In this document: in pieces, positions 58,362-64,000 of the stretch
How positions within the stretch are numbered: position 1 is the stretch's first letter
Layout of the letters: each line of letters begins with the position of its first letter
Made by a program: the position numbers and the translations under genes
The notes under the pieces: generated by a model
What the model was told of the DNA's origin: nothing
The model's input: the letters and a program-made list of their open reading frames with translations, nothing else
Databases searched by the model: none
Source of the DNA: Tateyamaria sp. syn59
GTDB taxonomy: Bacteria > Pseudomonadota > Alphaproteobacteria > Rhodobacterales > Rhodobacteraceae
DNA: 64,000 nucleotides
Assembly: GCF_007995245.1 (NCBI RefSeq)
Contig: NZ_VCBA01000002.1
Location: 372,001 to 436,000 of the forward strand
Direction of reading: 5' to 3'

Positions 58362-59135
58362 ATGTCCTACGCCGTCCGCATCTTCACCCATGCCGTCTCC
58401 ATGGTGTTCCGCGACTTCTCCGCCACCGTGCGGGCCACATGGGCTGGCCTGGCCGTACTCGCCATCGGATCGGCGATCCTCTTCGTGGTCGAACCCGGCC
58501 TCGCCACCGGCATGACAACTCTGGAAGACCCCTTTACAGATTCAAGCATCGAGGTGAGGGATATAAACTTCGGGCTCCTCTTCCCCGCCGCCCTCATGCT
58601 GATCGTCGGCTACATCATGATGATCGCCGCCTGGCACCGCTTCGTCCTGCTGCCACCCGACCGGCGGCACGAGGGGTTCACGCCAAGCGCAGGCATCGTG
58701 CTGGGCTATCTGGGCCGCAGCCTTCTTCTGGGCATTGTCATCATGCTGCTCGCCATCCCGATCTTCATCCCGGTCGGCCTTGCTGCAGCAGGTGCAGGCG
58801 ACGTGATCGCCAGCCTCGTGGCCATACCCGCCTTTGCCGTGCTGGGCTGGATTTTCTTCCGGTGGAGCCTGATCCTCCCCGCCTGCACCATCGGGCACAA
58901 GATGAGCTTCAGCGACAGCTGGCAAGCCACCAAGCCACTCGCCGCCACGATCTTCGGGATCATGATCATATTGGCCGTGGTCGATTTCCTTCTGAACCTC
59001 GCAGGCGACGCCATCCTGACGGACAACATCGTCAGCGGGCTCATCTCGGTCATTGTGTCCCTGCTCTACGCGCTCATCAGCGCGAGCATCCTGACAACAC
59101 TCTACGGCATCGCGGTCGAGGGGCGCGCGGTCTAG
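58362..59135 (+). CDS. Membrane protein of unknown function
   Basis: 257 residues from the ATG at 58362 (MSYAVRIFTHAVSMVFRDF), preceded by a GGAG ribosome site. Six hydrophobic segments lie near 27-47, 75-92, 115-138, 141-165, 198-215 and 222-245. The pattern FSDSWQATK near 190 resembles membrane proteins with repeated four-helix units, but no family is sure. The stop (TAG 59133-59135) shares CTAG with the stop of the opposing mrp gene. An upstream ATG at 58266 lacks a ribosome site. Confidence 0.7.
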   Translation: MSYAVRIFTHAVSMVFRDFSATVRATWAGLAVLAIGSAILFVVEPGLATGMTTLEDPFTDSSIEVRDINFGLLFPAALMLIVGYIMMIAAWHRFVLLPPDRRHEGFTPSAGIVLGYLGRSLLLGIVIMLLAIPIFIPVGLAAAGAGDVIASLVAIPAFAVLGWIFFRWSLILPACTIGHKMSFSDSWQATKPLAATIFGIMIILAVVDFLLNLAGDAILTDNIVSGLISVIVSLLYALISASILTTLYGIAVEGRAV

Positions 59136-60208
59136 GCCATCCCACCCTTGATCAAACCCTCGGCAATACGCGCATAGGCCTGCGCCATCGCCCCATCGCC
59201 AACAGCAACAGGCGTGCCGCCATCGCCCGCCAGCCGGGTCTCAAGATCAATCGGCAAGGCCCCGAGCAGCGGCACACCCAGCTTGTCAGCCTCAGCCGCC
59301 ACACCACCCTGACCAAAGATCTGATGCTCCGACCCGCAGTCGGGGCAAACAAACAGCGACATATTCTCGATCAACCCCAGCACCGGCGTCTTCAACGTCG
59401 CAAACATGTCCAGCGCCTTGCGCGCATCGATCAACGCCACGTCCTGCGGCGTCGACACCACGATGGCTCCCGACAGCTCTGACTTCGTACACAGGGTCAG
59501 CTGCACATCCCCCGTCCCCGGTGGCAGATCGACCAGCAGCACATCCAGCTCGCCCCACTCCACCTGCCCCAGCATCTGCTGCAACGCGCCCATCAGCATC
59601 GGCCCACGCCAGACCACGGCCTTCCCCTCCTCCAGCATGAAACCGATGGACATCAGGGTCACACCATGAGCGTGCAGGGGAATGATGGTCTTGCCATCAG
59701 GTGACGCGGGGCGCTTGTTCACGCCCATCATGCGGGGCTGGGAGGGACCGTATATATCTGCATCCAGCAACCCGACCTTCCGGCCCTGCTTGGCCAGCGC
59801 TACGGCCAGGTTCGACGACACGGTCGACTTGCCCACACCACCCTTGCCCGATCCAATCGCCAGAATGCGCTGCACGCCCACAGGCTTCGTCGGACCCTCC
59901 TGAGGTTTCGGATGTCCCCCGATCTTCAGGCTGGGGGCCGGCGGCTTCTTGGCCGGACCATGGGCAGTCAGCGCCACACGCACGTCCCCCACACCCGCCA
60001 GCCCGCGCACGGCAGCCTCGGCGGCTGCGCGCACAGGTTCCATCTTTGCCGCCAACTCCGGCGTCGGTGCCTCGATCACAAACTGAACCGCATCCCCCTG
60101 AATCTGCACGGCACGAATCAAGTCGCGACTGATCAGGTCTCCGCCATCCGGCATGCCGATCCGGGCCAGCGCTTCCATGACGTGATCCTTGGGTATCGAC
60201 ATGCTCAT
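59132..60208 (-). CDS. apbC: Iron-sulphur cluster carrier Mrp/ApbC
   Basis: About 358 residues (start MSMSIPKDHVMEALARIG). An N-terminal MIP18-like domain is followed by a P-loop ATPase with deviant Walker A GSGKGGVGKST near 125. The CxxC that binds the cluster is in LFVCPDCGSEHQIFG near 285. It loads Fe-S clusters on target proteins. The ATG at 60208 has a GGAGAG ribosome site; a second ATG lies two codons in. Confidence 0.94.
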   Translation of the reverse strand: MSMSIPKDHVMEALARIGMPDGGDLISRDLIRAVQIQGDAVQFVIEAPTPELAAKMEPVRAAAEAAVRGLAGVGDVRVALTAHGPAKKPPAPSLKIGGHPKPQEGPTKPVGVQRILAIGSGKGGVGKSTVSSNLAVALAKQGRKVGLLDADIYGPSQPRMMGVNKRPASPDGKTIIPLHAHGVTLMSIGFMLEEGKAVVWRGPMLMGALQQMLGQVEWGELDVLLVDLPPGTGDVQLTLCTKSELSGAIVVSTPQDVALIDARKALDMFATLKTPVLGLIENMSLFVCPDCGSEHQIFGQGGVAAEADKLGVPLLGALPIDLETRLAGDGGTPVAVGDGAMAQAYARIAEGLIKGGMA

Positions 60209-60365
60209 TCTCTCCGCTTTGTGATGCAAGAGATGGCAGTTATTTCACCAGTGGCAAGGGGCCGCCGATCAAACCCAGGCAAACGCCGCATTGGTGTGCG
60301 CACTGCCGCTCAATTCAACTTCAGGTCTATGCAATTGCTGCATGGCAGCATTGATCTGGTATGTA

Positions 60366-60393
60366 TTGTGCAGATGCAGCATGGGCCTATATA
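60366..60393 (+). promoter_or_regulatory. Candidate promoter of the DUF1127-small RNA unit
   Basis: TTGTGC (60366-60371) and TATATA (60388-60393) are 16 bases apart, 33 bases before the DUF1127 ATG. In Rhodobacter the matching unit is driven by the heat-shock sigma factors RpoHI and RpoHII; this site is compatible but not diagnostic. Confidence 0.4.
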
Positions 60394-60425
60394 ACCGTCA
60401 ACGAAACGAGCAAGAGGCAAAAAAC

Positions 60426-60656
60426 ATGGCCTATTACAATGACGTAGCGCAGCGCAGCGATCTGGTCGAACGTATGTTCGGCACCGCTGCACGTGTCTTT
60501 GAAGCTGCTGCAGAGCGCCGCGCAAAACAGCGCGTGTACCGCACAACGCTGAACGAATTGAACGCCCTTTCGAACCGTGAACTGGCAGATCTTGGCCTGC
60601 ACCGGTCCGAACTCAAACGGGTGGCTTGGGAATCTGCGCAAGACGCGGCAGCCTGA
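60426..60656 (+). CDS. DUF1127 small protein, CcaF1-like
   Basis: 76 residues. The C-terminal half RRAKQRVYRTTLNELNALSNRELADLGLHRSELKRVAW in pieces is the DUF1127 domain (YjiS-like), with its L-x-x-L-S-x-R-x-L-x-D-L-G-L core. In R. sphaeroides the gene in this position (RSP_6037, CcaF1) makes an RNA-binding protein and its transcript yields the CcsR small RNAs. Here, too, a hairpin array with CCUCC loops follows 18 bases after the stop. Ribosome site AGAGGC, ATG at 60426. The orthology is inferred from this layout. Confidence 0.88.
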   Translation: MAYYNDVAQRSDLVERMFGTAARVFEAAAERRAKQRVYRTTLNELNALSNRELADLGLHRSELKRVAWESAQDAAA

Positions 60657-60673
60657 GACTGAACACACGAGAT

Positions 60674-60747
60674 CAGATCGCCCTCTCCTCCTCCCTGAGG
60701 GCATCTGAAATTGGCGGCGGCGCCCTCCTCCTCCCTGGCGCCGCCGC
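60674..60747 (+). ncRNA. CcsR-like small RNA, unit 1 (two CCUCC-loop hairpins)
   Basis: Hairpin 1: CAGAT(c)GCCCT (60674-60684) with AGGGCATCTG (60698-60707), loop CTCCTCCTCCCTG. Hairpin 2: GCGGCGGCGCC (60714-60724) with GGCGCCGCCGC (60737-60747), 11 bp, loop CTCCTCCTCCCT. The stems differ but the loop is constant, as in the CcsR ('cuckoo') RNA family known downstream of DUF1127 genes. The loop can pair with GGAGG of ribosome-binding sites. Confidence 0.85.
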
Positions 60748-60766
60748 ACTTTGAACAAGAGCGATA

Positions 60767-60848
60767 CATCGCACCCCGGTCCTCCTCCTCCCTGACCGAC
60801 GCGATGTTGCAAGAGCGGCGGCATTCACCTCCTCCCGGATGTCGCCGC
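60767..60848 (+). ncRNA. CcsR-like small RNA, unit 2
   Basis: Hairpin 3: inner stem CGGTC (60777-60781) with GACCG (60794-60798), loop CTCCTCCTCCCT, plus outer stem CATCGC (60767-60772) with GCGATG (60801-60806). Hairpin 4: GCGGCGGCATTC (60815-60826) with GGATGTCGCCGC (60837-60848), including two G-U pairs, loop ACCTCCTCCC. The second loop is one triplet shorter than the others. A plain hairpin without CCUCC (60858-60871) separates this unit from the next. Confidence 0.82.
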
Positions 60849-60887
60849 ACGAATACGGCACCAAGTGGTGCACCAGATGTGTCCGAT

Positions 60888-60970
60888 CCGGTCCTCCTCC
60901 TCCCTGACCGGCGGGCATCAAGACGGCGGCGATCCCCTCCTCCTCCCTGGGATCGCCGCTTTTTCTTTTT
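60888..60970 (+). ncRNA. CcsR-like small RNA, unit 3, ending in a terminator
   Basis: Hairpin 5: CCGGTC (60888-60893) with GACCGG (60906-60911), loop CTCCTCCTCCCT. Hairpin 6: GCGGCGATCCC (60926-60936) with GGGATCGCCGC (60949-60959), loop CTCCTCCTCCCT, followed by TTTTTCTTTTT (60960-60970). The last hairpin thus doubles as the intrinsic terminator of the whole DUF1127 transcript. Confidence 0.86.
60926..60970 (+). terminator. Intrinsic terminator of the DUF1127/small RNA transcript
   Basis: An 11-bp GC-rich perfect stem followed by eleven pyrimidines, ten of them T. It overlaps hairpin 6 of the RNA array, so termination and the functional CCUCC loop share one structure. Confidence 0.9.
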
Positions 60971-60996
60971 CGGCCCCCAAAAATTGTTGCCCGTGA

Positions 60997-62864: not shown

Positions 62865-64000
62865 TCAAAACGGAATGTCATCCGTCCCCGACACAAAGCG
62901 CGAGACAACCTTCTTCAGCCCCGCCTTTTCAAAGTCGACCTCCAGCTTGTCGCCCTCGATCCCGACAATCGCACCATAGCCGAACTTCTGATGAAACACC
63001 CGCTCGCCCACGGTAAAGGCCGACACAGCATTGAGATCAATCACCGTATTCCGGCTCTCCTGCGGCTGGCTCAACGGCCGCTCGCCAGCCCGCGCCTGCA
63101 GCCGTTTCCAGCCTGGCGAATTGTAGACATTCGCCTCCGCCGCCGCCTGATGCAGCCGCGATTCTGCCCCCATATTTGGTGCAGCCGCCCCAAAACCACC
63201 CCCATATAGGCCCGGTGGCGTCAGAACATCCACATGATCCTCAGGCAGCTCATCGACAAAGCGCGACGGCATCGACGACTGCCATTGCCCGAAGACCCGC
63301 CGGTTCGAGGCAAAGGAAATCGTGCACACCTCCTCCGCCCGTGTGATGCCGACATAGGCCAGCCGCCGCTCCTCTTCGAGCCCCTTGACCCCGCTCTCAT
63401 CCATCGACCGCTGCGACGGAAACAGCCCGTCCTCCCACCCCGGCAAAAAGACTTGCGGAAACTCCAACCCCTTCGCCGCATGCAGCGTCATGATCGAAAC
63501 CTTCGCCTCATCATCCTCTGATGCGTTGTCCATCACCAGCGAAACGTGCTCAAGAAATCCTTGCAAATTCTCAAAGGATTCAAGGGCTTTCACCAGCTCC
63601 TTCAAGTTCTCCAACCGCCCCGGCGCTTCCGGAGTTTTGTCGTTCTGCCAATGCGCCGTGTAGCCGGACTCATCCAGAATGATCTCCGCCAACTCAATAT
63701 GACCCACCGGCGGCGGCCCATACTCAACCCGCAGCGGCCCTTCGCCATCATCCAGAACGCTGTCGTCCTCAGCCACCTCGATCCGCGGCCCGCGCAGCTT
63801 CGAATGCCACCGCGCAATCCCATCAACAAGGGCGCGTAGCTCATTGCCGCCCTTGCCTTTTATCAATCCCTGCTCAACCGCCAGCCGCGCCCCTTCGACC
63901 AGCGGCAACCCATTCGCCCGCGCAGTGATCTGAATGGTCTGCTGTGCCTTGTCACCCAGCCCCCGCTTCGGCGTGTTCACAATCCGCTCAAACGCCAGAT
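62865..64000 (-). CDS. uvrD: UvrD/PcrA-type DNA helicase, C-terminal part (cut by window edge)
   Basis: The visible 378 codons are the C-terminal half of a superfamily 1 helicase; the N-terminus lies past the window end. Motif V/VI regions are clear: SIMTLHAAKGLEFPQVFLPG and RRLAYVGITRAEE. IVNTPKRGLGDKAQQ at the very edge is also UvrD-typical. The C-terminal tail NAVSAFTVGERVFHQKFGYGAIVGIEGDKLEVDF in pieces is the Tudor-like RNA polymerase-binding domain. A choice between UvrD and PcrA names cannot be made from this part. Confidence 0.94.
   Translation of the reverse strand, partial: LAFERIVNTPKRGLGDKAQQTIQITARANGLPLVEGARLAVEQGLIKGKGGNELRALVDGIARWHSKLRGPRIEVAEDDSVLDDGEGPLRVEYGPPPVGHIELAEIILDESGYTAHWQNDKTPEAPGRLENLKELVKALESFENLQGFLEHVSLVMDNASEDDEAKVSIMTLHAAKGLEFPQVFLPGWEDGLFPSQRSMDESGVKGLEEERRLAYVGITRAEEVCTISFASNRRVFGQWQSSMPSRFVDELPEDHVDVLTPPGLYGGGFGAAAPNMGAESRLHQAAAEANVYNSPGWKRLQARAGERPLSQPQESRNTVIDLNAVSAFTVGERVFHQKFGYGAIVGIEGDKLEVDFEKAGLKKVVSRFVSGTDDIPF

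Follow-up and report, generated by a model that had tools for sequence, protein, structure and literature searches.

Several small RNAs of the Alphaproteobacteria are built of adjacent hairpins that present one loop motif on unrelated stems. In the cuckoo RNA family, encoded at CIN1 loci, such hairpins are accompanied by short DUF1127 proteins (PMC10253847, in part). In Rhodobacter sphaeroides, CcsR1-4 (RF02791) are Hfq-dependent RNase E products of the 3′ UTR of ccaF1 (PMC8625941; PMC7866481; PMC10253847), the gene and its RNAs being transcribed from an RpoHI/RpoHII promoter (PMC10253847). CcaF1 (RSP_6037) is itself an RNA-binding protein that affects CcsR levels (PMC10253847), and the CcsR RNAs modulate C1 metabolism and pyruvate dehydrogenase (PMC10253847 and PMC8625941, citing Billenkamp 2015). 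The related ar14 or NfeR1 RNA of rhizobia (RF02344) likewise bears several CCUCCUCCC-loop hairpins on variable stems, but has three hairpins and, in NfeR1, its own sigma-70-type promoter (PMC10746234). The loop of such rhizobial relatives was recognized as an anti-Shine-Dalgarno (anti-SD) sequence on variable stems (PMC3927594), and pairing has been suggested or predicted as the mode of action of the relatives (PMC3927594; PMC10746234).

The published accounts that we found treat this RNA family as part of the stress response, under RpoH control. A second, metabolic regulator is relevant here, i.e., PhaR, a repressor that senses stored polyhydroxybutyrate, whose binding sequence in R. sphaeroides is CTGCNNNGCAG (PMC12542648) and which has two sites, one on either side of the -35 element, at phaP1 of B. 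diazoefficiens (PMC6201568). An alphaproteobacterial small RNA already linked to PhaR is MmgR of S. meliloti, which is overproduced when phaR (aniA) is depleted; it is a different RNA, which fine-tunes polyhydroxybutyrate accumulation, likely via phasin expression (PMC12542648).

A CcsR-like locus with three two-hairpin units

The window, i.e., the whole stretch of 64,000 nucleotides from Tateyamaria sp. syn59 analyzed here (assembly GCF_007995245.1, contig NZ_VCBA01000002.1, positions 372,001 to 436,000), holds an array of six hairpins with CCUCC-type pyrimidine loops, preceded by a DUF1127 gene and closed by a probable terminator. Structures below are from folding:

60426..60656, plus strand: gene for a CcaF1-like DUF1127 protein of 76 codons (PF06568, E 2.9e-12)
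60673..60708, plus strand: hairpin 1, unit 1; interrupted stem (6+6), loop TCCTCCTCCCT
60714..60747, plus strand: hairpin 2, unit 1; 11-bp stem, loop CTCCTCCTCCCT
60766..60807, plus strand: hairpin 3, unit 2; stem of 7+5 around an internal loop, loop CTCCTCCTCCCT
60815..60848, plus strand: hairpin 4, unit 2; 12-bp stem, loop ACCTCCTCCC
60858..60871, plus strand: plain inter-unit hairpin GCACC-AAGT-GGTGC, a separator between units
60880..60917, plus strand: hairpin 5, unit 3; interrupted stem (6+6), loop CTCCTCCTCCCT
60925..60970, plus strand: hairpin 6, unit 3 (fold 60925-60960), an anti-SD-loop hairpin, with its U-tract

Upstream of the DUF1127 gene, which is one of four DUF1127 matches in this genome, is a divergently oriented Mrp/NUBPL-type ATPase gene (59132-60208, minus strand). 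The hairpins stand in three adjacent pairs, all with CCUCC-type loops and with the DUF1127 gene directly 5′, which is the anatomy of a CIN1 locus. The initial annotation, made from the letters of this stretch, had described six CCUCC-loop hairpins behind a DUF1127 gene, and these are indeed present. Chance is no explanation for the array, since our hairpin detector, run on 1000 dinucleotide-preserving shuffles of 60657-60980, found no hairpin in 984 and a single one in the other 16. Over the rest of the window, on both strands, it returned one extra hairpin, at 63325-63345 on the plus strand, within a minus-strand open reading frame. The plain hairpin had been placed exactly. As for loop lengths, the annotation is right on the four loops that read CTCCTCCTCCCT and on the ten-base ACCTCCTCCC, but the first loop, taken to be one base longer than the common form, has 11 bases in the minimum-energy fold and reaches 13 only with its closing C-G pair opened. 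The division into three two-hairpin units also stands, whereas the pairing of a short with a long stem does not: in the odd-numbered hairpins the supposedly short stems reach about 12 bp with an interruption (6+6, 7+5 and 6+6), and in the even-numbered ones the long stems run for 11-12 bp without a break. Hairpin 6, followed by the U-tract TTTTTCTTTTT, probably doubles as the intrinsic terminator; the terminator rule of our scan (loop of 3-8 bases) is blind to a terminator with a 12-base loop.

All three units align with the Rfam CcsR1 model over its full length (1-83 of 83), at 60669-60752 (55.9 bits), 60766-60853 (28.2 bits) and 60879-60964 (44.0 bits), with E values of 6.8e-13, 2.2e-9 and 1e-4 among them, in support of the CcsR/cuckoo assignment first proposed. 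The search with this model thus recovers every unit, but each below the RF02791 gathering cut-off of 65.3 bits; the array's matches to ar14 (46.2 and 42.3 bits) are likewise under the RF02344 cut-off of 58.8 bits. At the gathering threshold the sole Rfam match in the whole window is a cobalamin riboswitch (RF00174, 5252-5468, minus strand, 127.9 bits), and CcsR1 emerges only by E-value. The CcsR1 gathering score is a narrow cut-off: of 296 genomes from the window's GTDB family, only 10 reach it, vs. 248 that match at E 0.001. A few of these 248 array genomes may be chance matches, since E 0.001 is also reached by Thermus composti, one of the 14 genomes used as controls. Falling below a score that so few family members pass, the array is classed as CcsR-like by its anatomy and outside RF02791. 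At E 0.01, the model matches 19 of 20 same-genus genomes, the window's own included, and a DUF1127-like open reading frame (by regular expression) precedes the array in all 19 same-genus loci. The one relative without a CcsR1 match, as opposed to the other 18, has the smallest genome of the genus sample (3.1 Mb) and carries phaR.

By its anatomy, the locus is a CcsR-like/cuckoo (CIN1) locus, a kind already known, and probably works in the manner of its relatives. It has in common with that of R. sphaeroides the two-hairpin units, the CCUCCUCCC loops, the upstream DUF1127 gene and the end terminator, and differs in having three units instead of four and a sub-threshold Rfam score. The cuckoo family as defined by Reinkensmeier and Giegerich in 2015 reportedly comprises RNAs of 2 to 4 hairpins; six are found here but, counted by unit, no structure outside the family was seen. 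Hyphomicrobiales loci (L053, L054 and L100 are examples) hold 2-5 hairpins; by regular expression, a DUF1127 open reading frame was found upstream in 7 of 33 and none nearby in the other 26, and 30 of the 33 have no PhaR-type site.

A conserved promoter with PhaR-type sites

The most informative part of the locus is its conserved promoter and operator region, on which the initial annotation was silent:

60336..60350, plus strand: site 1, TGCTGC-ATG-GCAGCA, a candidate PhaR operator that matches the R. sphaeroides PhaR site CTGCNNNGCAG
60366..60381, plus strand: TTGTGC (-35-like) overlapping site 2, TGC-AGAT-GCAGCA, in the promoter spacer (from alignment)
60386..60394, plus strand: -10-like CCTATATAA of a candidate RpoH-type promoter (from alignment of relatives)

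By analogy with R. sphaeroides the promoter is probably of the RpoH type. A scan for sigma-70 promoters gave no match. When the upstream regions of 17 same-genus loci were aligned (all of the 19 but G009 and G014), ATGCAATTGCTGCATRGCAGCATTG proved nearly invariant, followed by ATTGTGCANNYGCAGCA and then by CYTATATT-like letters, the starts of sites 1 and 2 being about 31 bases apart; the -10-like element of relatives is often CCYATNTT-like. The R. sphaeroides-like genome G110, with eight anti-SD hairpins, has the TTGTGCAGATGCAGCA element in common with the window, but its site 1 is degenerate (CCGCATGGCAG), one base off the exact palindrome found here.

The full palindrome TGCTGCN3GCAGCA occurs once in the window against 0.02 expected, and includes the CTGCNNNGCAG match near the promoter at 60338-60348. 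The shorter CTGCN3GCAG is uninformative by itself (three in the window vs. 2.6 expected). Within 650 bases 5′ of the array, it was found in 17 same-genus loci out of 19 (G009 and G014 read CTGCATAGCGG), in 16 of 28 other-genus loci of the family (32 examined, four of them without two clustered hairpins), in 10 of 15 loci titled as Rhodobacterales (18 picked, three without clustered hairpins; one is titled “bacterium”, and the upstream sequence of two is limited to 320 and 248 bases), and in 3 of 33 Hyphomicrobiales loci (34 picked, one without clustered hairpins; one is titled Alphaproteobacteria and one has 2 upstream bases). The reversed motif was found in none, two, none and none of the loci of these sets, respectively. 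Site 2 (TGC-N4-GCAGCA) precedes the array in 56 of 62 Rhodobacterales loci. Its pattern ATTGTGCANNYGCAGCA is present in 205 of the 296 family genomes, i.e., in 196 of 248 array genomes vs. 9 of 48 array-less ones (p 2e-15). Among the matches listed, hand-pairing of the pattern with a CcsR1 match on one contig and strand was possible in 47 genomes, where the pattern lies 52-840 bases before that match, at 270-390 in 30 of them.

Three sets of observations bear on a link between these sites and PhaR. First, the genome encodes phaR (TIGR01848, E 1.4e-43), and TGCTGC-N3-GCAGCA recurs as two copies 27 bases apart in the interval from phaC to the likely ATG of its Phasin_2 gene, while AGCTGC-N3-GCAGCA, with one outer base changed, stands about 40 bases 5′ of the likely GTG start of phaR; the inner palindrome of site 1 is thus identical to that of a phasin gene in the same genome. 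Second, the two candidate sites flank the -35 element as those of B. diazoefficiens phaP1 do, in keeping with phasin and phaR promoters, where two copies of CTGCNNNGCAG occur and one overlaps the promoter; what sets the locus apart from that regulon is that the would-be target is an RNA-regulator operon and that the second copy has one weak half and a spacer of 4 bases, vs. 3 in the published PhaR motif. Third, among array genomes the site-2 pattern is present in 195 of 244 with phaR vs. one of four without it (p 0.03, a fuller count that supersedes a subset count of co-loss made without G170, one-sided 0.0044). phaR was found in 289 of the 296 family genomes, and four of the seven others carry arrays. 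In three of these (G022, G198 and G338, near-closed at 1, 3 and 6 contigs), both sites are gone and decayed remnants are left; G338 has an array before which no DUF1127 open reading frame was seen. The fourth, G170, retains site 2 and a one-mismatch site 1, and a clean co-loss of phaR and sites is accordingly not borne out, unless phaR was missed in this fragmented draft (590 contigs, 92% complete). A site-2 match in a further phaR-less genome (G187) is treated as chance, since no array adjoins it and it falls in a coding stretch that reads as secY-like.

The sites could instead serve another regulator, or be part of the promoter proper, at an otherwise CcsR-like locus in which PhaR has no part. 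We consider this the less likely reading, albeit one that carries real weight. G170 keeps the sites with no phaR detected, site 2 overlaps the -35 element and the spacer, and in 12 of the 28 other-genus loci the strict CTGCN3GCAG is absent even though their genomes carry PhaR. Moreover, an outer ATGC...GCAT dyad is kept in phaR-less genomes where the inner CTGC/GCAG has decayed, so a second factor may bind at site 1. This dyad was seen overlapping site 1 at 60329-60343 in the window and in three relatives (L389, L391 and L392). Against this reading speak the identity with the phasin-gene palindrome, the lack of both sites in the three near-closed phaR-less genomes with arrays, and a spacer conserved to a degree that is not usual for promoters. 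Judged from the DNA, control of the array promoter by PhaR is a good hypothesis, one to which we give slightly better than even chances.

As far as the literature was searched, a PhaR-type operator at a CcsR-like promoter would be new: by title and abstract, in a coverage that excludes most subscription papers, no report linking PhaR to a DUF1127/CcsR operon was found. The one paper found to contain the strings PhaR and CcaF1 together is a review on epitranscriptome readers (PMC10371769). At the remaining three DUF1127 loci in this genome (about 3 kb each), there are no such TGC/GCA sites. The sole further exact TGCTGCATNGCAGCA site found in the genome (G000:C10:68451-68465; L304:3452) lies about 80 bases 5′ of a gene for an NMT1-like binding protein, which is a possible further PhaR target.

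Constant loops on changing stems

Selection on the loop, proposed in the initial annotation on the grounds of unrelated stems with a constant loop, is borne out by comparison. Across the three-unit arrays of ten same-genus species that could be aligned, mean pairwise difference rises from loops (0.032) through stems (0.090) to linkers (0.279), and 60 of 67 loop columns, 111 of 148 stem columns and 23 of 68 linker columns are invariant. The loops, therefore, do not diverge faster than the stems, and even the ten-base ACCTCCTCCC of hairpin 4 is unchanged in 10 of 10 species. Nine of the 19 same-genus loci are outside this alignment, six with two units (G008, G013, G014, G016, G017 and G018) and three with diverged linkers (G006, G009 and G011). 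The stems change in a compensatory manner: standard pairs fill 95.6% of 727 pair cells, and five pairs, all in hairpins 5 and 6, are altered on both sides, a number reached in none of 500 shuffles. Another covariation measure, over further pair types, was equalled by 44 of 500 shuffles. On a wider scale, 44 loci (the window, 28 from other genera of the family and the 15 titled loci, which may repeat a genus) yield 146 different apical stem ends, vs. CCTCCTCCC in 266 of 273 loops. Loops there span 9-14 bases, 14 being the detector limit, with core flanks of differing length, and arrays hold 2-13 detected hairpins.

The plain hairpin is a mirror image of the anti-SD hairpins, in that its stem is kept and its loop varies. 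A GCRYC...GRYGC-type stem with a changing loop is found in 22 of 24 inter-unit linkers of at least 30 bases from the 19 same-genus loci, and the GCACC/GGTGC separator, by which the locus differs from R. sphaeroides CcsR, is typical of the window's genus. In the ten-species alignment this hairpin pairs in 75-76% of cells, a low figure partly because its loop and neighbors misalign. The GCACC/GGTGC stem as a family-wide feature was rejected, with 4 of 81 linkers in 30 other-genus loci vs. 7 shuffled linkers; separators of other types, with at least five Watson-Crick pairs, do occur in 40 of 59 other-genus linkers (shuffled mean 9.4, maximum 15). We would guess that the separator parts the units or halts an exonuclease once RNase E has cut. 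The annotation had singled out the number of units and the plain hairpin as differing at this locus, which is right in part: unit number is variable in the family as in the genus, and a separator with a varying loop is general among the same-genus loci.

A CCUCC loop mimics the anti-Shine-Dalgarno sequence and should therefore pair with the Shine-Dalgarno (SD) sequences of mRNAs. A protein could be selecting the loop instead: as a binding site for CcaF1, Hfq or some other factor, a constant loop on variable stems would fit equally well, and CcsR RNAs do depend on Hfq (PMC7866481), while CcaF1 binds RNA and affects CcsR (PMC10253847). We regard this as unlikely given the complementarity of the loop to SD sequences and the pairing suggested for relatives (PMC3927594; PMC10746234), and given, as a weak argument, core flanks of varying length, which suit pairing over a fixed protein pocket. 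Somewhat less probable still is a bulk decoy, in which the multitude of loops would soak up SD sequences in general, and so slow translation under stress, without particular mRNA targets. Generic, near-identical loops, at up to 13 detected hairpins per locus, are what a decoy calls for; loci with just two to four detected hairpins are not, nor are the effects on C1 metabolism and pyruvate dehydrogenase in R. sphaeroides (PMC10253847; PMC8625941, citing Billenkamp 2015). That the hairpins merely stabilize or terminate the DUF1127 mRNA is very improbable, for the U-tract behind the last hairpin, which would suit a terminator, is absent at the other five, and terminators have no need of a constant 9-base loop.

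A possible link between carbon storage and anti-SD RNAs

Our preferred reading, which we hold to be probable on the strength of comparative sequence analysis, is that of a CcsR-like operon with an RpoH-type promoter, repressed by PhaR and encoding three SD-pairing RNAs. We infer its expression, processing, target pairing and PhaR binding as follows. A single transcript, from the probable RpoH-type promoter, would encode the CcaF1-like DUF1127 protein and carry the three two-hairpin RNAs in its 3′ UTR, and RNase E, judging from R. sphaeroides, would cut it between the units. Each mature RNA would then show two CCUCC-rich loops to GGAGG-type ribosome-binding sites, pairing with which would repress or destabilize the mRNAs; the stems would serve as interchangeable scaffolds, and the conserved plain hairpin would keep the units apart. 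PhaR, bound to the two TGC/GCA sites, would repress the operon until polyhydroxybutyrate granules titrate it away, such that the RNAs would be made both under stress and during carbon storage.

If a PhaR-type operator does extend over most array-bearing genera of the family, it would add a metabolic input to the stress control. Polyhydroxybutyrate is made from acetyl-CoA, a pool that pyruvate dehydrogenase feeds. The PhaR input, if real, could thus account for the effects of the RNAs on pyruvate dehydrogenase and C1 metabolism. We give an even chance to a broader proposal, in which the CcsR/cuckoo operon would be a direct PhaR target throughout Rhodobacterales, stored carbon would free anti-SD RNAs that retune carbon-flux mRNAs and thereby close a loop between storage and translation, and alphaproteobacterial viruses with similar arrays may exploit SD pairing. 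In practice, the promoter element may double as an extra marker of CIN1 loci.

Anti-SD arrays in viral contigs

A pattern scan of IMG/VR returned at least 120 loci, of which at least 29 have two or more clustered anti-SD hairpins, many being near-copies; by eye, one group of near-copies comprises five contigs including L189 and another eleven including L201, and L205 is doubtful. No array was found in named phages, in eight regions around genes matching three of the viral contigs, and the array DNA of two contigs gave no match to the phage collection, in a search whose low-complexity filter may hide such sequence. No literature joining CCUCCUCCC with phage was found either, in a coverage that excludes most subscription papers. 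In the following IMG/VR contigs, the array has phage genes for replication, a repressor, packaging or the capsid nearby:

L201:1784-1897: viral anti-SD array
L189:177-289: viral anti-SD array
L248:4369-4440: viral anti-SD array
L233:1729-1802: viral anti-SD array
L162:1510-1609: viral anti-SD array

Viral units that adjoin U-rich stretches could simply be terminators with such loops. One further locus, L237, matches a Sinorhizobium locus at 91% identity over 269 bases and may derive from flanking host DNA. The arrays of L201 and L189 are each convergent with a helicase gene; genes for a Cas4-type exonuclease and a beta-clamp belong to the same block, to which L201 adds an exonuclease and a Sak4-like protein, and L189 a CI-like repressor and an integrase. 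The array of L248 stands between a methyltransferase gene and a large terminase gene, the latter about 3.7 kb away, and that of L233 directly 3′ of the major head gene; in L255, a protease-like gene lies on one side of the array and the major head gene on the other.
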